From Tamilnaduibacter salinus (GTDB taxonomy: Bacteria > Pseudomonadota > Gammaproteobacteria > Pseudomonadales > Oleiphilaceae): a DNA stretch of 64,000 nt. This document shows positions 1-64,000 of this stretch, piece by piece. The position numbers were made by a program, and so were the translations under genes. Under the pieces are notes generated by a model that saw nothing but the letters and a program-made list of their open reading frames with translations, was not told the origin of the DNA and made no database searches. The DNA lies in the NCBI RefSeq assembly GCF_003096655.1, contig NZ_QEKQ01000006.1, positions 62,001-126,000 on the forward strand, written 5' to 3'. Position 1 is the stretch's first letter. Each line of letters starts with the position of its first letter.

Positions 1-665
1 TTCGAGAGCAGCAGGAACTGATCGCCGCTTTTGATCGGTATGCCGGTCCGGTGACGCGACTGTTGCGGGACCATCCCGACCGGACGGGCTGGCAACGGGC
101 CCTGGAGATCGGCCCCGGGGAGGGCGCCTTTCTTGACACGCTCAGTGAACTGTGTACATCGGTGACCGCACTCGACAATTCCTCGGACATGCTGTCGCGC
201 AGCGAGGAAAGCTGCCGACAGGCCGGACTGGACAATGTGGACTTTGTGCTCGGCTCAACGGATGCGCTGGCACCGGACGCGACCACGTCGTACGATCTCA
301 TCGTTGCCAACATGGTGCTGCACCACGTGGCCAGCCCGGCGGCCATCCTGTCAGACAGTGCCCGTTTGCTGGCAGGCGGCGGCACCCTGATCGTCAGCGA
401 TCTGTGTCGCCACGACCAGAACTGGGCCCGCAACGCCTGCGGTGATCTCTGGCTCGGGTTCGAGCCGGAGGAACTGACAGCGTGGGCCGGCGATGCCGGC
501 CTCGATGCCGGTGAGACACTGTTTATCGGTTTACGTAATGGCTTCCAGATTCAGGTCCGTGAGTTCCGGAAGCCGTCACACACCGCTACCCAGGGAACCT
601 CTGAAAAAGTTTCTGATGCGGTGAAGTTCGAGGCGCACGGAGCGCAGAAAGCGAGGCATACCTGA
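1..665 (+). CDS. SAM-dependent methyltransferase, probably C-terminal part of an ArsR-type regulator/methyltransferase (5' truncated by window)
   Basis: The reading frame is open from base 3, so the gene begins outside the window. A SAM-binding motif I (EIGPGEG) is encoded near bases 105-125, an acidic motif (VTALDNS) follows, and NMVLHHV lies near base 310, all typical of class I methyltransferases. From memory, the ending LRNGFQIQVREFRKP is characteristic of ArsR-methyltransferase proteins encoded upstream of metK in marine gammaproteobacteria; the N-terminal HTH would lie outside the window and is inferred. The natural end is probably near FRKP (base 575). The last 23 residues and the stop codon are supplied by the inserted repeat element that follows. 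The gene likely senses or handles SAM-cycle metabolites, given metK, ahcY and metF downstream. Confidence 0.7.
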   Translation, partial: REQQELIAAFDRYAGPVTRLLRDHPDRTGWQRALEIGPGEGAFLDTLSELCTSVTALDNSSDMLSRSEESCRQAGLDNVDFVLGSTDALAPDATTSYDLIVANMVLHHVASPAAILSDSARLLAGGGTLIVSDLCRHDQNWARNACGDLWLGFEPEELTAWAGDAGLDAGETLFIGLRNGFQIQVREFRKPSHTATQGTSEKVSDAVKFEAHGAQKARHT

Positions 666-56527: not shown

Positions 56528-58038
56528 CAACCGTCGTCTGGTTCAAGCGCGACCTGCGGGTGGACGATCATCCGCCTTTGCATCACGCCGTGGCCTCGGG
56601 CCGGGACGTATTACCGCTCTACGTCATCGAACCGGCGTACTGGCAGTTGCCGGATACCAGCGAGCGTCAGTGGGCGTTCGTGCGTGAGAGTCTGGTGGAA
56701 CTGGACCACCGGCTTCGGGAACGCGGCAGCGCCCTGATCGTCCGGGTTGGCCGGGTCACAGACGTCCTGTCAGAACTGCGGAGTCGTTTCGATGTGGACA
56801 CGGTTCTGGCGCACCAGGAAACGGGCAACGACTGGACGTTCCAGCGTGACCGGGACGTTCTGGCCTGGTGCCGGGATCAGTCGGTCACCTTTCGGGAGTG
56901 GCGACCCTATGGAGTGGTGCGCCGGCTGCCGGACCGGGATCTTTGGGACCGCGAATGGCAGCGCATCATGCGGGCGGAACCAGTGCCGGCCCCCAGCTCG
57001 ATCCCGGCCTTGCCTGACGGACTCGACACGAACTGGCCAGGCGAGCCGACGCTCGCGGACCGACGCTCCTGCCCCGGACGGCAACCTGGCGGCGACCGCG
57101 CCGCGCGCAAGCTGCTTGACACGTTTCTGGAACGCCGCTGCGTCGGCTATCAACACAACATCTCCAGTCCGAACACCGCGACCCACGGATCGTCCCGGCT
57201 GAGCCCACACCTGGCGCACGGCACCATCAGCCTTCGACGGGTCTATCAGGCGGCGAAAATGGCCGGTGCTGACCGACGGGCACTGCCCCGCAAGCAGCGC
57301 AGCCTCACCAGCTTTCGTTCCCGGCTGCACTGGCACTGCCACTTCATCCAGAAACTGGAAGATGAGCCGGAGCTGGAATTCCGGGCGATTCATCGAGAGA
57401 TGGAGCACCTCAAATCCGGTCCGAATGACCCTGAGCGGTTGGAGCGCTGGCGCGAGGGGCAAACAGGCTGGCCGCTGGTAGACGCCTCCATGCGGGCCCT
57501 TCACGCCACCGGATGGATCAACTTCCGCATGCGCGCGATGCTAATGGCCGTCGCCAACTACCACCTCTGGCTACACTGGCGTGAGCCGGCGCTCCACCTG
57601 GCCCGACAGTTCACCGACTTCGAGCCCGGCATCCACTATCCGCAGGCCCAGATGCAGTCCGGGCTGACCGGCATCAATGCACTAAGGATCTACAACCCGG
57701 TGCTTCAGAGCCAGAAACTGGATGCAGACGGTCGCTTCATCCGCCAGTGGATTCCGGAGCTGACTGACGTGCCCTGCGAATGGATTCATCAGCCCTGGCT
57801 GATGTCAGCGGATCAACAGGCCCGTTTTGGCGTTGGCACCTATCCGCAGCCCATCTGTGACCATGAAGAGGCCTCCCGGACCGCGCGGCGAGCGGTGCGC
57901 GAATTCCGACGCCAACACGTCAGCGAGGCGGAGACGAATCGTGTTCTCGACCGGCATGGCAGCCGCAAGGGACCACCTCAGAAACGACCGAAACCACCCC
58001 GGGAAAACGCCGGGGATGACCAGATGACCCTGTTCTGA
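56524..58038 (+). CDS. Cryptochrome/photolyase family flavoprotein (DUF2256-linked clade)
   Basis: A 504-residue flavoprotein with the photolyase N-terminal domain ([20 protein letters not shown]) and the FAD-binding domain ([20 protein letters not shown] near residue 316). Where class I CPD photolyases have a Trp-rich stretch (WQW), this protein has [20 protein letters not shown], so it belongs to a different clade; whether it repairs DNA or senses light is open. A basic, Pro-rich C-terminal tail (residues about 480-500) follows. ATG 56524 overlaps DUF2256. Confidence 0.92.
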
Positions 58039-58040
58039 GC

Positions 58041-58451
58041 TCAGGACCAGCGCCGGGCGAGAAACCAACCACCCACCATGGCCAGCAGCATGGCCGCCAG
58101 CGGCCACGACAGCCCCGCTATCGAGGCAACGGCTGGACCGGGACAGTATCCGGACAGGCCCCAGCCGATGCCAAACAGCGCGGCGCCCCCGATAAGGCGG
58201 CCATCCAGATCCCGGCGCGTGGGGATATGAAATACGTCCCCAAACAAAGGGTCGCCACGGTGCCAGGCCAGACGAAAGCCAACAAAGGTGGTGACGACGG
58301 CCCCGCCCATGACGAACGCCAGTGTCGGATCCCAGGCACCTGCAATATCCAGAAAACCGATGACACGGGCAGGATCGGTCATGCCGGATACCGCCAGGCC
58401 AAGACCAAACAGGAGACCGGCCAGATACCCCATCAACGCTTTCAGGTTCAT
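58041..58451 (-). CDS. YeeE/YedE-type sulfur transporter half (PmpB-like)
   Basis: A 136-residue membrane protein with about four helices. GLAVSGMTDPARVIGFLD near residue 18 and the Cys motif GLSGYCPGPAVASI near residue 98 are typical of YeeE/YedE (TsuA-type) proteins, which move thiosulfate or other sulfur compounds. ATG 58451 overlaps the stop of the other half by four bases and has GGGAG upstream. Its end lies two bases from the convergent photolyase stop. Confidence 0.88.
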   Translation of the reverse strand: MNLKALMGYLAGLLFGLGLAVSGMTDPARVIGFLDIAGAWDPTLAFVMGGAVVTTFVGFRLAWHRGDPLFGDVFHIPTRRDLDGRLIGGAALFGIGWGLSGYCPGPAVASIAGLSWPLAAMLLAMVGGWFLARRWS

Positions 58452-58906
58452 GCGCCAACTCCCATAAGATGCCGCGACACATAAACCGTCACCATTCCCG
58501 CCACCAAAAACGTGACGGTCGCCATTAACGAACGAACCGACAGGCGCGACAGACCGCAGACACCGTGACCACTGGTGCAACCGCTACCGATACCGGTTCC
58601 GAAACCGACCAGCGCACCGGCCGCCAACATCAGGCCAGCGCCGCCGACTGGGGGGCCGACGACCGCATCTGGTTGACCGGCGACATTGCCACCTTCGCCC
58701 AATAACAAAAGCAGAACCGGCCCACTGACCAGTCCCAGCAGGAATGTCAGTCGCCAGGCCGTGTCGCCGGTCGGGCGATCAAACAGTAATCCGGACACAA
58801 TGCCACTGATACCGGCAACCCGACCCAGCGCCGCCATCAGCCAACTGGCGGACGCGCCGATTAAAACACCACCGAGTAGCCCCTGCAGAGCCGACCCCCA
58901 ATCCAT
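58448..58906 (-). CDS. YeeE/YedE-type sulfur transporter half (PmpA-like)
   Basis: A 152-residue membrane protein. SGIVSGLLF near residue 40 and the Cys pair motif GIGSGCTSGHGVCGLSRLS near residue 108 are the hallmark of the first YeeE/YedE half. It pairs with the next gene to make one channel, the pmpA-pmpB arrangement known from BigR-regulated sulfide operons. ATG 58906 follows GGGGAGG. It lies 82 bases after the SulP gene on the same strand. Confidence 0.88.
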   Translation of the reverse strand: MDWGSALQGLLGGVLIGASASWLMAALGRVAGISGIVSGLLFDRPTGDTAWRLTFLLGLVSGPVLLLLLGEGGNVAGQPDAVVGPPVGGAGLMLAAGALVGFGTGIGSGCTSGHGVCGLSRLSVRSLMATVTFLVAGMVTVYVSRHLMGVGA

Positions 58907-58988
58907 ACTTGATGACCTCCCCAATAAAGCCGCATCAAAACGACGTCAATACCGACAGAGCTGCGTCCAAGAGCTCCGCAATGCACCA

Positions 58989-60758
58989 TCACGCTGTGCG
59001 TGACGAAAAGCCGGACGCTGATTTCAGCCCCCGGGCAGCCCCCGCCCCATCCCGATTGGTGAGAGCCTCCCAGGCCGCATAGGTACTCAGGAACACTTGC
59101 CCCGTCAGCTCGTGACAGAACTCCGTGTTTTCCAGACGATCCATAACCGGGCCTTTCACTTCCGCCAGATGCAGGCGTACACCTGCGTCTCTGAGGCGGG
59201 CATTGATCGCCTCCAGACTCTCCAGCGCAGAGGCATCGATGATGTTGACGGCCTGGCAGGTCAGCACAAGATCGGTCAGGCAGGCTTGATTGGACACCAG
59301 CGCCAGCACGGTGTCTTCCAGATACCGGGCGTTCGCGAAATACAGACTCTCGTCCACTCGCAGAAACACGACTCGCTGATTGGTTTCCACATCATGCCGC
59401 TCAATATTCCGGAAGTGCTCCGTTCCCGGAACCCGACCGACGACCGCGCTGTGCGGTCGACTGCTGCGATACAGGTGTAATCCAATGGAAAGCCCGACGC
59501 CCACGAGAATACCGCTTTCAACCCCATGAAGAAGCGTCAACAGGAGCGTGGCCAGCATGGCGATACCATCGGGTACGGAATAGGCCATGGTCCGACGAAT
59601 CGCTGGCAGGTCAATCAGAGTGCCAACCGCAACGATGATCGTCGCCGCCAGCGTGGCCTTGGGAAGAAACGCCAGCGGTTCGGTCAGCGTGAGCGTCGCC
59701 AGGGCAATGCCAACCGCCGTCAGAGCCCCCGCGACCGGCGTCACGGCACCGGCCTCGAAATTCACCACTGAACGCGAAAAACCACCGGATACCGGCGACC
59801 CACCACTGACGCCGGCGCCCACATTCGACAACCCCAGCGCAATCAGCTCTTTGTTGGGATCAATCCGTTGGCGACGTTTTGCCGCCAGCGTCTGAGCGAC
59901 GGAAACGGACTCCACAAAGCCCACGAGGCTGATGAGAACCGCCGCCGGCAGTAGCGTGCGCCAAAGGGACGTGTCCATGGAGGGCATTGCCAGCGTCGGC
60001 AGCCCACTGGGTACCTGCCCAACCAGATTGACACCATCACCGCCAAGCTTGAGCCCCCATGCCACCAGGGTCGTCACAATGACGGCAGAGACCGGCGCCG
60101 CCTTCGTGATCAGATCCGCGGCCCGCTGGGTCAGACCCACTCCCGTTAGAACAGAGCGCAGATAGTTCCGGCACAGGTAAAGGTAAGCCAGAACACCAAA
60201 CCCGATGACCATCGTCGTCACATTGGCACTATCCAGCCCGTTGATGAGCCCCGCCCCCATCTCGATCAGGTTACTGCCCCGGTATGGTATGCCCAGCAAG
60301 TGCCCCAGCTGACTCGCGGCGATCAGAATGCCGGAAGCGGTCACGAATCCTGAAATCACCGGATGACTGAGAAAATTCGCCAGAAACCCGAGTCGCAGGA
60401 CGCCCATACCGACCAGCACCACACCTGAGAGGCTCGCCAGAACCAGGGCGGCCCCGACGTACTCCGGGCTTCCAGCTTCAGCAATACCGCTCAACGCTGA
60501 GGCCGTCATCAACGAGGCCACGGCAACCGGGCCAACGGCCAGCGTGGCGCTGGTCCCAAAAACCGCGTATATCACCAGCGGCAGCATGCTGGCATACAGC
60601 CCGACTTCGGGAGGGAGCCCAGCGAGCAGCGCATACGCCAATGCCTGCGGCACCAGCATCAGGGTAACGATCACCGCCGCCAGCAAATCACTGACAAACG
60701 CGTCCCCACGATATCCTTCCAACCAGCTGGCAATCGGCAGCAGTCGACCAAACCTCAT
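58989..60758 (-). CDS. SulP family anion transporter with STAS domain
   Basis: A 589-residue transporter with many membrane helices (residues about 15-405), including DLLAAVIVTLMLVPQALAYA near residue 24, and a C-terminal STAS domain (about 430-560; LTCQAVNIIDASALESLEAI). SulP proteins carry sulfate, bicarbonate or related anions. Its start overlaps the stop of the sulfide:quinone oxidoreductase gene by four bases, so a sulfur oxyanion (sulfate, sulfite or thiosulfate) is the likely cargo here. Confidence 0.93.
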   Translation of the reverse strand: MRFGRLLPIASWLEGYRGDAFVSDLLAAVIVTLMLVPQALAYALLAGLPPEVGLYASMLPLVIYAVFGTSATLAVGPVAVASLMTASALSGIAEAGSPEYVGAALVLASLSGVVLVGMGVLRLGFLANFLSHPVISGFVTASGILIAASQLGHLLGIPYRGSNLIEMGAGLINGLDSANVTTMVIGFGVLAYLYLCRNYLRSVLTGVGLTQRAADLITKAAPVSAVIVTTLVAWGLKLGGDGVNLVGQVPSGLPTLAMPSMDTSLWRTLLPAAVLISLVGFVESVSVAQTLAAKRRQRIDPNKELIALGLSNVGAGVSGGSPVSGGFSRSVVNFEAGAVTPVAGALTAVGIALATLTLTEPLAFLPKATLAATIIVAVGTLIDLPAIRRTMAYSVPDGIAMLATLLLTLLHGVESGILVGVGLSIGLHLYRSSRPHSAVVGRVPGTEHFRNIERHDVETNQRVVFLRVDESLYFANARYLEDTVLALVSNQACLTDLVLTCQAVNIIDASALESLEAINARLRDAGVRLHLAEVKGPVMDRLENTEFCHELTGQVFLSTYAAWEALTNRDGAGAARGLKSASGFSSRTA

Positions 60759-62047
60759 TGAGCGTTATCCTGGCTGGCTTTCAGAGCGGATCGCCGTGCC
60801 GGCGAGGCGAGCCATTCACGGCCCTTGAGCATCCCGTGCCAATAGAGCAACGGCAGCTGGTTTGCTTTCAGAAACCAGGCCGCCCGCGTCGCTTTCGTAC
60901 CATCGTTCACCCATTTTGGGAAACTCGGCTGCAGCGCCCCACCATACCCGAACTCGGCAAGAACAATACGACCACGCTCAACCGTCAACGGGCAGGAGCC
61001 ATAACCCAGGTAAGCCGCCTCAAGCGGGCGATCATCCAGCGATGCCATCAGATTCTCGGCAACAACCGGCGCCTGTTTTCGGACCGCAGCGGCCGTCTTT
61101 GCGTTCGGCGTGCCACTGGCATCCCCAAGACCGAAAATATCCGGATAGTGGCGGTGTCGCAGCGTATCGTCCTCAAGATCGAGCCAACCTGACTCATTGC
61201 CAAGCCCCGACTGGGCGATGAACCCAGGCGCTGTCTGCGGGGGGACCACATGAAGCATGTCAAATGATCGCTCGACGACCGGTTGCCCATCCACACCCAA
61301 TTGTCGAAACCGGGCGATCTGTTGAGGGCCGTCGACTCCAACGAGCTGCTCCTCAAAACACAGATCAATGCCGTACCGATCGATGTACTCCTGAAGGGCC
61401 GGTACATAGGCATCCACTCCGAACAGCTTTGCCCCTGTATTATGGAAGGCAACGTCGATATCACCGAGACGCCCCTGCCGACGCCAGTGATCGCACGAGA
61501 GATACATGGCCTTCTGCGGCGCACCCGCGCATTTGATCGGCATTGGCGGCTGAGTGAAGCGGGCAGTGCCACCCTTCAGTTTCTGGACGAGGGACCAGGT
61601 GTAGGGCGCAAGGTCATAGCGGTAATTGGACGTCACCCCGTTCGCACCAAGGGTTTCCGTGAGGCCCTCAATGGCACCCCAGTCCAATGCCAGTCCCGGG
61701 GCCACGACGAGGCGCTCGTAGGCAAGCCGTTGTCCATCGGAGAGAACCACTTCGTGCCGACCAGGGTCGACCCGCTCCGCTCCCACGTTATACCAGGTCG
61801 CTTTGGACGGGATCACGCCGGACATGCTCTTGCGGGTGGATTCCGGGCGAAACACACCGCCGCCCACCATCGTCCAACCCGGCTGGTAACTGTGAGTGGT
61901 GGCGGGATCAACGATCGCGATATCGAGTGAGGACTTCCGCTTGAGCAGGCTCGCGGAGACCGCGATCCCCGCAGCGCCACCCCCAATCACCACGATCTGG
62001 TGGGCGTGATTCACCCCCGTTCTCCGGTCCGCTTCTGCCGTCATCAT
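60755..62047 (-). CDS. Sulfide:quinone oxidoreductase-like flavoprotein
   Basis: A 430-residue FAD protein with IVVIGGGAAGIAVSASLL near the N-terminus, the active-site Cys in PIKCAGAPQKAMYLSCDHW near residue 155 and a second Cys in GYGSCPLTV near residue 355, the pair expected for SQR. It oxidises sulfide to sulfane sulfur and reduces quinone at the membrane. Upstream persulfide-processing genes fit this role. ATG 62047 (or the next ATG at 62044) follows GAGGTG; earlier in-frame starts are less likely. Confidence 0.92.
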   Translation of the reverse strand: MMTAEADRRTGVNHAHQIVVIGGGAAGIAVSASLLKRKSSLDIAIVDPATTHSYQPGWTMVGGGVFRPESTRKSMSGVIPSKATWYNVGAERVDPGRHEVVLSDGQRLAYERLVVAPGLALDWGAIEGLTETLGANGVTSNYRYDLAPYTWSLVQKLKGGTARFTQPPMPIKCAGAPQKAMYLSCDHWRRQGRLGDIDVAFHNTGAKLFGVDAYVPALQEYIDRYGIDLCFEEQLVGVDGPQQIARFRQLGVDGQPVVERSFDMLHVVPPQTAPGFIAQSGLGNESGWLDLEDDTLRHRHYPDIFGLGDASGTPNAKTAAAVRKQAPVVAENLMASLDDRPLEAAYLGYGSCPLTVERGRIVLAEFGYGGALQPSFPKWVNDGTKATRAAWFLKANQLPLLYWHGMLKGREWLASPARRSALKASQDNAQ

Positions 62048-62129
62048 CCACACCTCATCGATTGCTGAAGAGAACCCCAACGTTCAGGTTCCGAATTCAC
62101 GCCCTATGAGCGTATATTTGGACGCGCCG

Positions 62130-62549
62130 TCATCCATCGATCATCTCGCGGATGGGCTCGGGATCATGGCCCGCCTCATGGGCGGCTTTGAGGAGTCCGG
62201 GAATATCGCAACCGGGCTTCCTGCTCCTGGCATGGGCCCAGAGGTGGACCGCTCGACGACCTGTCCGACAAAAGGCCAGAACCGGCGATGGTGCATGGTC
62301 AAGCGCCTGGCCAAAGGATTCGATATCGTCGTCGGAGTACTCTCCCGGCGAGACCGGCACGCTATGCCATTCCAGCCCAAGGGCCTCGGCCCTTGCCCGG
62401 AGGGACTCCTCTCCGGGATGATCCTCGGCCTCACCGGGACGACGGTTGCAGATCACTGTCCGGAATCCCCGGTGGGCCACCTCTTTGAGGTCATCCGGCG
62501 TCACGGCATCCGCGATGGAAACCGCAGGCTCTATCTGCTGAATCTTCAT
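62130..62549 (-). CDS. DUF442/TIGR01244 protein (phosphatase-like, BLH N-terminal module)
   Basis: A 139-residue protein. It starts MKIQQIEPAVSIADAVTPDD and holds the Cys-x5-Arg phosphatase-like loop AFCRTGRRAV near residue 93. In BLH (beta-lactamase-like hydrolase) proteins this domain is fused to a persulfide dioxygenase; here it is a separate gene 12 bases downstream of the MBL gene. It is thought to act as a sulfurtransferase-like partner, but the chemistry is inferred. Confidence 0.88.
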   Translation of the reverse strand: MKIQQIEPAVSIADAVTPDDLKEVAHRGFRTVICNRRPGEAEDHPGEESLRARAEALGLEWHSVPVSPGEYSDDDIESFGQALDHAPSPVLAFCRTGRRAVHLWAHARSRKPGCDIPGLLKAAHEAGHDPEPIREMIDG

Positions 62550-62561
62550 CAGAACCTCCTC

Positions 62562-63428
62562 TCAGAAACGGTTGATCGGCACCTTCAGATAAATCTGACC
62601 ATTGTCCTCGGCCGGCGGCATGTGCCCGGCCCGCATATTCACCTGTACGGAGGGCAAGATCAGCCGAGGCATACCCAGCCCGGAGTCCCGCTTGGTCCGC
62701 ATCTGAACAAAGTCATCTTCGCTAACACCATCGTGAACATGGATGTTCGCCCGGCGCTCCTCGCCGACCGTGGTCTCATGCTGGTGCTCATCGCGCCCTG
62801 GCGCCTTGTAGTCGTGGCACAGAAAAATCCGCGTCTCATCGGGAAGAGACAGTACTTTCTGAATGGAGTGGTAGAGCGTTCGGGCGTCACCACCAGGGAA
62901 GTCGCACCGGGCCGTTCCGAAGTCCGGGGCGAACAACGTATCGCCAACAAAGGCCGAGTCACCAACCACATACGTCAGACAGGCCGGTGTGTGACCGGGG
63001 GTATGAAGGACTCGGGCCTCGAGTTCCCCGATGCGGAACGAATCCCCCTCCTCGAACAGGCGGTCGAACTGGCTGCCGTCGCGGGCAAACTCCGTTCCGG
63101 CATTAAAAGCCTTACCGAATATGTCCTGAACCTCCACGATCCGGGCGCCAATGCCCGTTTTCCCGCCGAGCTTCTCGTGCAGGTACGGCGCCGCGGAAAG
63201 GTGATCGGCGTGCACGTGCGTCTCCAACACCCACTCCACCGACAGGTCGTGCGTTCGAACGTAGTCAATGATCGCGTCCGCTGAGCGGACGTCGGTCCGG
63301 CCGGCGTCGTAATCGAAATCCAGCACGGAATCCACAATGGCGCAGGACCGGCTGTCCGGGTCCTGAACGATGTAACTGAATGTGCTGGTCGGCTCATCAA
63401 AGAAATGGGTGACGATCGGGCGTTGCAT
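62562..63428 (-). CDS. MBL-fold persulfide dioxygenase-like protein (BLH C-terminal type)
   Basis: A 288-residue metallo-beta-lactamase-fold protein. THVHADHLSAAPYL near residue 77 is the HxHxDH metal motif, HTPGHTPACLTYVVGD gives another His, and VGDTLFAPDFGTARCDFPGG and FLCHDYKAPGRDEHQHETT match the BLH/ETHE1-like persulfide dioxygenase group. It would oxidise glutathione persulfide to sulfite downstream of SQR. ATG 63428 follows GGAGGAG. It leads the operon after a 144-base gap; a regulator such as BigR was not found in the window. Confidence 0.91.
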   Translation of the reverse strand: MQRPIVTHFFDEPTSTFSYIVQDPDSRSCAIVDSVLDFDYDAGRTDVRSADAIIDYVRTHDLSVEWVLETHVHADHLSAAPYLHEKLGGKTGIGARIVEVQDIFGKAFNAGTEFARDGSQFDRLFEEGDSFRIGELEARVLHTPGHTPACLTYVVGDSAFVGDTLFAPDFGTARCDFPGGDARTLYHSIQKVLSLPDETRIFLCHDYKAPGRDEHQHETTVGEERRANIHVHDGVSEDDFVQMRTKRDSGLGMPRLILPSVQVNMRAGHMPPAEDNGQIYLKVPINRF

Positions 63429-63572
63429 GGCTCCTCCCACAAACCGCTCGGTTTGACGTTTCACATGATCTTTAGGCCACCATAACCCAACTTTTTAATC
63501 TAAGCATAGACTTTTTTGTTATATATGAGCTCTGACGAGATGAACAGCCATCATGAGGAAGGCAGTGTCTGG

Positions 63573-64000
63573 TCAGCCGCCGATGGCGGTGACCATCAGC
63601 GGAATATAGATCAGGGAGAACAGGGTACTGAGCAGCGCCGTCCCGGCCGCCTGACGGGGCGCCGTTTCCAGGAGCGTCGCAATAACGACCGTATTGGCCG
63701 CGATCGGGGTGATCGAGATGAGGAACACAGCCTGATAGACCGCCGATTCGTACAACCCGAAGACATGACTGTCCAGCCACCAGAATGCCATGGCGAGCAT
63801 GGGCCAGAGCAGAAACTTGCCGAAAAAGGCGAGAGCAGTGAATCTCGGATTGCCAACCAGCCCGCGGAAGCTGGTGATGCTCATACCAATGATCATCATG
63901 CCAAAGACACTGTAGGCACCGCGCAGGTTATCGAACAGCGGGACGAAGACCTCTGGGATCGCCCCGCCCGACAGGTTGACGACCGCCGCCAGACCAAAGG
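63573..64000 (-). CDS. AEC family transporter (auxin efflux carrier type), 5' part outside window
   Basis: The frame is open to the right edge and encodes the C-terminal part of an AEC-family membrane transporter. Visible pieces include GAIPEVFVPLFDNLRG, GMMIIGMSITSFRG, and the conserved AVFLISITPIAANTVVIATL near the end, with four membrane helices. Family members export organic acids or other small molecules; substrate unknown. It precedes the sulfide operon on the same strand but with a 144-base gap, so it may be a separate unit. Confidence 0.85.
   Translation of the reverse strand, partial: FGLAAVVNLSGGAIPEVFVPLFDNLRGAYSVFGMMIIGMSITSFRGLVGNPRFTALAFFGKFLLWPMLAMAFWWLDSHVFGLYESAVYQAVFLISITPIAANTVVIATLLETAPRQAAGTALLSTLFSLIYIPLMVTAIGG

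Follow-up and report, generated by a model that had tools for sequence, protein, structure and literature searches.

The window analyzed here, a 64,000-nucleotide stretch of the Tamilnaduibacter salinus genome (contig NZ_QEKQ01000006.1, positions 62,001 to 126,000), contains a minus-strand run of six open, co-directional genes with a predicted role in sulfide oxidation. In the order of transcription they encode a persulfide dioxygenase (PDO) of the metallo-β-lactamase (MBL) fold, a DUF442 sulfurtransferase, a sulfide:quinone oxidoreductase (SQR), a SulP/SLC26 anion transporter, and the two halves of a YeeE/YedE transporter; a conserved 47-base element lies ahead of the first gene (Table 1). 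The PDO and DUF442 genes are separated by 12 bases and the DUF442 and SQR genes by 82 bases, and 4-base overlaps join SQR to SulP and YeeE half 1 to half 2. The SQR open reading frame (ORF) is open from a TTG at 62080, upstream of the ATG at 62047. The run is flanked by a plus-strand photolyase gene ending at 58038 and a membrane-transport gene ending at 63573. The initial annotation had described this six-gene run with the same gaps and overlaps, which the open minus-strand ORFs and the family matches bore out, and its view of one sulfide-oxidation gene run with import and export genes was supported.

Table 1. Features of the sulfide-oxidation locus (window coordinates)
Feature	Coordinates	Strand	Basis
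Persulfide dioxygenase (PDO), MBL fold, PDO2/ETHE1-like, 288 aa	62562..63428	-	profiles, PDB match, ligands, tree
DUF442 sulfurtransferase, rhodanese-like, TIGR01244, 139 aa, C94/R99	62130..62549	-	profiles, tree, residues
Sulfide:quinone oxidoreductase (SQR), human SQOR-like, 430 aa from ATG 62047	60755..62047	-	PDB match, residues
SulP/SLC26 anion transporter with STAS domain, 589 aa; putative exporter of sulfite or a related anion	58989..60758	-	profiles, PDB match, TauE slot exchange
YeeE/YedE half 1 (first of pair), 152 aa, C109 conserved	58448..58906	-	weak profile, residues
YeeE/YedE half 2 (second of pair), DUF6691, 136 aa, C103 conserved	58041..58451	-	profile, residues
Putative promoter/operator element, 47 bases	63482..63528	-	54-100 bases ahead of PDO start codon

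The MBL protein matched the profile Lactamase_B and the dioxygenase part of NF040641, and in a sequence comparison with the PDB it matched entry 4ysk (E 1e-117), which we take to be a PDO of P. putida. The DUF442 protein matched BLH_phosphatase/TIGR01244, the SQR was similar to human SQOR (6mp5, E 4e-85), and the transporter matched Sulfate_transp and STAS, with TIGR00815 above the cut-off. YeeE half 2 was recognized as DUF6691; half 1 gave no Pfam match and a weak match to TsuA. By these matches the run holds an SQOR-like SQR, a PDO, a DUF442 sulfurtransferase, a YedE1E2/PmpAB-type pair, and a SulP/SLC26 protein. The functional residues were intact in alignments with relatives: H71, H73, D75, H76, H146, D163, and H205 of the PDO (69 of 69 relatives each), the redox cysteines C173 and C352 of the SQR (80 of 80), C94 and R99 of the DUF442 protein (56 of 56 each), and C109 and C103 of the YeeE halves (38 of 38 each), the latter two being equated with the published Cys104 and Cys101 by position and not by alignment to those proteins. 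The numbering of the DUF442 catalytic residues follows PMC6441731.

We propose that the six genes form a sulfide and persulfide detoxification operon in which SulP acts as a sulfite-type exporter and a regulator shared with other genes acts on the upstream element, a reading to which we assign a probability of about 0.62. The enzyme activities and the direction of YeeE transport are assigned by analogy to published relatives. SQR would oxidize H2S to persulfide and pass the electrons to quinone, the DUF442 protein would shuttle sulfane sulfur among carriers, also transferring it to sulfite to form thiosulfate, and PDO would convert glutathione persulfide (GSSH) to sulfite. The DUF442 domain of a Cupriavidus SQR has rhodanese activity and forms thiosulfate from GSSH and sulfite (PMC6441731), so thiosulfate is a likely product here besides sulfite. 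The YeeE pair would bring extracellular sulfane sulfur back into the cytoplasm for PDO; a paired YedE1E2 transporter takes up zero-valent sulfur and depends on one Cys per half (PMC10812762). We infer the substrate and direction of SulP, which would discharge sulfite or the thiosulfate or sulfate derived from it, the task of TauE in sister operons, and likewise the sulfur-responsive regulator that would act on the element.

Several published operons resemble this arrangement. Among the SQR-PDO clusters of heterotrophic bacteria, Acinetobacter baumannii has a pdo1-sqr-tauE-homoserine dehydrogenase operon under FisR activation (PMC7315123), which likewise combines genes for PDO, SQR, and an anion exporter for sulfide clearance, whereas the window has SulP in place of TauE, an additional DUF442 gene and YeeE pair, and no sigma-54 boxes in the upstream gap. 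On a plasmid of Agrobacterium tumefaciens F2, PDO, a YeeE pair (annotated as hypothetical and recognized by similarity search), DUF442, and SQR are also found in one run, with the last two annotated as 'DUF442/Sulfide:quinone oxidoreductase'; in the window, DUF442 is separate, the YeeE pair stands last instead of second, and SulP occupies the place of a TauE-like gene. The BigR/Blh operon (blh-bigR-YeeE-YeeE-TauE; Rhizobium and Bosea plasmids; PMC5823870) shares PDO and DUF442 domains, the YeeE pair, and an exporter. Its Blh is a fusion with an MBL domain of another PDO clade, it has BigR inside, and it lacks SQR, whereas the window operon has separate ORFs and an SQR. The nearest published precedent found is the naming of PDO, SqrB, and SulP genes in the mto clusters of Methylophaga thiooxydans, where a SulP permease was expressed during growth on dimethylsulfide; these clusters share the three genes with the window but center on methanethiol oxidase, and no mention of DUF442 or YeeE was seen in their description (PMC6548844).

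Gene order was read in the best 80 SQR relatives of at least 586 candidates, in named genomes, a sample biased to close SQR relatives. The six-gene set is a recurring bacterial operon and is not unique to the window genome: Halomonas beimenensis (L003), H. cerina (L004), and Vreelandella nanhaiensis (L014) share all six genes, their order, and the upstream element with the window, V. nanhaiensis differing by a Blh-type PDO. In Alphaproteobacteria the gene set is present with the YeeE pair placed earlier. A same-strand PDO gene lies upstream of SQR in 63 of the 80 loci, and both YeeE halves precede SQR in 34 and follow SulP in three (L003, L004, L014).

The initial annotation had regarded the PDO and DUF442 proteins as the two parts of Blh, separated into individual genes. 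This view did not hold for the dioxygenase, which belongs with the SQR-linked PDOs. In a tree of 95 MBL proteins, the window PDO groups with these, and a branch with support 100 parts it from the clade holding all eight Blh MBL domains; its identity is 83% to a Marinobacter PDO and 56.7% to the best Blh MBL domain. A Blh origin of the MBL protein was rejected by the tree and by an approximately unbiased (AU) test (p 5.5e-44) that held the window protein alone with the eight Blh domains, its close kin being left out.

For the DUF442 protein the evidence on descent is mixed. Of the 80 SQR loci, 31 encode DUF442 as the leading part of an SQR fusion, 25 have a stand-alone DUF442 gene preceding SQR, and in 24 no DUF442 was found at this position; none has DUF442 fused to MBL. 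The window protein is at best 43.8% identical to an SQR-fused DUF442 versus 34.5% to a Blh DUF442. The DUF442 trees (131 columns, long branches) do not settle the descent. With the long rows L133, L162 (one of the eight Blh), and L124 left out, the AU test gave p 0.315 for the window clade held with Blh and 0.572 for the seven remaining Blh held together apart from the rest. The allowed Blh grouping, the 12-base gap to the MBL gene compared with 82 bases to SQR, and two PDO-DUF442 runs without a following SQR in the host's family (L153, L178) would suit a functional split Blh in which DUF442 serves PDO rather than SQR. We consider this quite unlikely, given that the PDO is not of Blh descent and that DUF442 is repeatedly fused to SQR, never to MBL, in these loci and is closer in sequence to such fused forms.

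The PDO of the V. nanhaiensis operon (L014 7394-8374) is of the Blh type, with 75.0% identity to a Blh MBL domain and 52.1% to the window PDO. PDO-DUF442-SQR-SulP runs with a Blh-clade PDO were also seen in two genomes of the host's family (L095; L091 and L154 from one genome), and the dioxygenase itself seems to have been swapped in place in these three cases. The T. salinus genome has a second, Blh-type PDO on contig C10 (L150 7591-8505; 71.8% identity to a Blh domain) with no DUF442, SQR, or SulP gene beside it, and a second DUF442 gene (G000:C2:103561-103875; L167 1405-1830) next to what is presumably a ferrochelatase-like gene.

The sulfite made by PDO must exit the cell, a step usually attributed to the exporter TauE; TauE is said to have been reported as a sulfite exporter by Weinitschke in 2007. 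In the 80 SQR loci, the gene directly after SQR was SulP in 42, TauE in 21, and neither in 16, with one locus cut off, and no locus had both SulP and TauE within 6.5 kb. On the SQR tree (a quick tree of 84 rows with 25 unresolved forks), at least nine changes between SulP and TauE are needed. Two closely related pairs of loci display an exchange in place. L075 and L081 share 91.6% identity across the 4416 bases that run up to the end of SQR, continue with SulP (1.8 kb) and TauE (0.9 kb), respectively, and align anew past these genes with 93.1% identity over 712 bases. L045 and L065 are 84.6% identical over 4522 bases, then diverge, and afterward align again with 86% identity over only 86 bases. 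Among six annotated Blh loci, TauE lies downstream in Rhizobium, Bosea, and Neorhizobium and SulP in Chelatococcus; Serratia has a TauE-family gene upstream, and Ensifer has neither in view. SQR together with SulP, which the initial annotation took for an unusual addition to such operons, is accordingly common in the 80 loci and extends to the Blh/ArsR-type operon of Chelatococcus.

Because SulP and TauE swap at one slot, the most likely role of SulP is the export of sulfite or of a sulfite-derived anion. Several observations weigh against this assignment. Members of the SulP family are known chiefly for importing or exchanging sulfate, bicarbonate, or chloride. Five TauE-family genes lie elsewhere in the genome, so SulP may not be required for sulfite export. 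Thirteen of the 16 loci with neither gene after SQR also lack DUF442. The search for TauE used four queries, one of which carries the annotation 'hypothetical protein', and may have overlooked divergent members. Finally, SulP (best 90 matches) directly follows PDO at only 2 of 65 class-wide PDO places. SulP might instead be an ordinary importer or exchanger that supports the pathway indirectly, e.g., by anion counter-transport or sulfate scavenging, in line with its closest PDB sequence, the Arabidopsis sulfate transporter SULTR4;1 (E 2e-97), with weaker matches below the cut-off to the DauA and BicA models, and with the other TauE genes of the genome. This appears unlikely to us, since a sulfate importer is not expected to substitute for a sulfite exporter, and the two genes alternate at one slot, never both nearby, with exchange in place between close relatives. 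In open-licence papers, no report was found of SulP as an exporter in such operons.

The coupling of SulP to this pathway was also followed outside the SQR sample. An even draw of 369 genomes from the host's class gave 45 SQR places, nine with a same-strand SulP gene directly downstream; by this survey, SulP-SQR adjacency is beyond chance. Starting from the best 90 window-like SulP matches of a longer list, a listed SQR or PDO was present within 3 kb for 17 of the first 30, one of the next 30, and none of the last 30. The tight PDO-SulP pair is mainly a feature of the host's family.

The initial annotation had suggested a search for an operator in 63429-63572, and this hint proved right. An ungapped alignment over 47 bases was obtained for 17 upstream regions, taken from the window, Marinobacter, Halomonas, Vreelandella, and members of the host's family, with the consensus ATAT-N11/12-CTATGCTTA(T/G)A(A/T)C; of 20 regions tried, L096 and L097 missed the pattern, and L116, a duplicate of L012, was left out. 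Nine columns are invariant in the 17 rows, five of them fixed by the selecting regular expression, and the surrounding DNA looks unconserved by eye. The element contains a −10-like T-A-n-A hexamer. The best dyad axis, between columns 24 and 25, is barely ahead of other axes and overlaps this hexamer, an arrangement compatible with a repressor; an activator or an atypical promoter may also be considered. No report of the element was found in open-licence papers.

The aligned regions were used to build a sequence-only model (R1), for which matches elsewhere are independent evidence. The T. salinus genome has one strong match, the window site (E 1.4e-6), itself a training row; the next best has E 0.16. 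Sites outside the training set were found before SQR, PDO-SulP, and YeeE genes of relatives. At E ≤0.05, the element lies shortly before SQR in all 17 loci with SQR outside the operon (L101-L114, L117-L119), four of which have a divergent PDO gene. Locus L115 has two copies, one before SQR and one, a training row, before PDO-DUF442.

A wider survey within the host's family gave matches at E ≤0.2 in 86 of 121 genomes, T. salinus included; at this threshold, chance alone would produce a match in roughly every fifth genome. Seventy-nine places in relatives, chosen without knowledge of the neighboring genes, were examined together with a weak T. salinus site on contig C2; most recognized SQR sites and the operons already examined were left out. 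A pathway or peroxiredoxin gene follows at 69 of the 79: PDO then SulP at 55 (with DUF442 between them at L178), YeeE at five, PDO alone at three, PDO-DUF442 at two, SQR at one, and peroxiredoxin at three. The PDO-SulP combination accounts for 55 of the 80 places read, with a median gap of 15 bases. The ten places without an adjacent pathway gene all fall in the second 40, a set of mostly weaker matches, and are taken as chance matches; two of them precede genes for an Fnr-like protein (L254) and a PAPS reductase (L256).

The element is not a general feature of such operons, since 21 of 32 hand-chosen further sources were without a match at E ≤1, most of them operons from other groups (Marinomonas and sphingomonads, for example), and in Marinobacter daepoensis (L016) a match precedes the DUF442 gene and none precedes SQR. 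The 11 matching sources (E ≤1), two of them the window site itself, include six SQR genes outside operons and one DUF442 gene. None of ten plasmid loci carried the element (model, E ≤0.05).

That the element is simply a conserved core promoter, or is kept by common descent without binding a regulator, would agree with its −10-like hexamer, its modest dyad symmetry, and the relatedness of the family genomes. We regard this as improbable, because different first genes (SQR, PDO, YeeE, peroxiredoxin) stand behind it at separate places, one locus has two copies, the DNA around the element looks unconserved by eye, and the T. salinus genome has a single strong match. As the same element precedes SQR, PDO-SulP, YeeE, and a few peroxiredoxin genes, SQR, PDO-SulP, and YeeE-DUF442 look like modules of one regulon that are gathered into one operon in the window.

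The regulator would probably be a shared, trans-acting, sulfur-responsive protein that is not of the BigR type and probably not of the sigma-54/FisR type. A PF01022 search of the genome, which detects both BigR references, yielded four proteins, none BigR-like, in agreement with the initial annotation, which had seen no BigR; by eye, we take them to be an ArsC-ArsR fusion, an ArsR-methyltransferase, and two AsnC/Lrp-like proteins. No sigma-54 box (TGGCAC-N5-TTGC, ≤2 mismatches) was present in 63429-63572; the FisR gene itself was not searched for. A sigma-70 scan gave one site, inside the cluster, versus 1.8 expected. No constant regulator was seen beside the cluster in seven relatives on visual inspection of the first 50 residues. 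Upstream of the second PDO on contig C10 are two Crp/Fnr-type regulator genes, with nothing tying them to the element.

In Marinobacter/Halomonas-type bacteria, the proposed regulon would comprise SQR, PDO-SulP, a YeeE pair with DUF442, peroxiredoxin, and possibly an H2S methyltransferase. A broader reading, which we hold tentatively and at somewhat less than even odds, is that a SulP subfamily is a dedicated sulfite/thiosulfate exporter interchangeable with TauE and that a sulfane-sulfur regulon with a new sensor is organized on one element. The in-place SulP/TauE exchange makes a new role for the widespread 'sulfate permease' family directly testable, and the element outlines a probable sulfide regulon in many marine bacteria and offers a way to search for its sensor.

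YeeE pairs with their own element copy were seen at L181, L189, L199, L206, L240, and L255, the copy at L199 lying between a PDO-SulP pair and a divergent YeeE pair. In T. salinus, a peroxiredoxin gene after the contig C10 PDO (L150 9828-10454) has a very weak copy (E 1.5). The weak C2 copy (G000:C2:228388-228416; L175 1501-1529; L217; E 0.16) lies 47 bases before a gene for a 207-aa UbiE-type SAM methyltransferase; marine H2S/methanethiol methyltransferases (MddH) are of the UbiE type and are reported to be induced by H2S and/or methanethiol (MeSH) (PMC12904073).

At the left end of the window (1-665; L084 1438-2505), a gene for an ArsR-type helix-turn-helix (HTH) domain fused to a methyltransferase domain crosses the window border, its HTH part lying approximately 200-340 bases before the window. 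Such ArsR-methyltransferase fusions can regulate methionine-cycle genes. Among the related loci, a 560-aa ORF of Sphingomonas albertensis (L036 8524-10206) matches SQR and part of the MBL query and may be a fusion. In Marinobacter pelagius (L010 11999-13429), SulP is followed by what is presumably a CydA-like protein, recognized from its first residues, and annotated cytochrome bd oxidase genes follow the operon of Agrobacterium F2 (L164 8011-10408).

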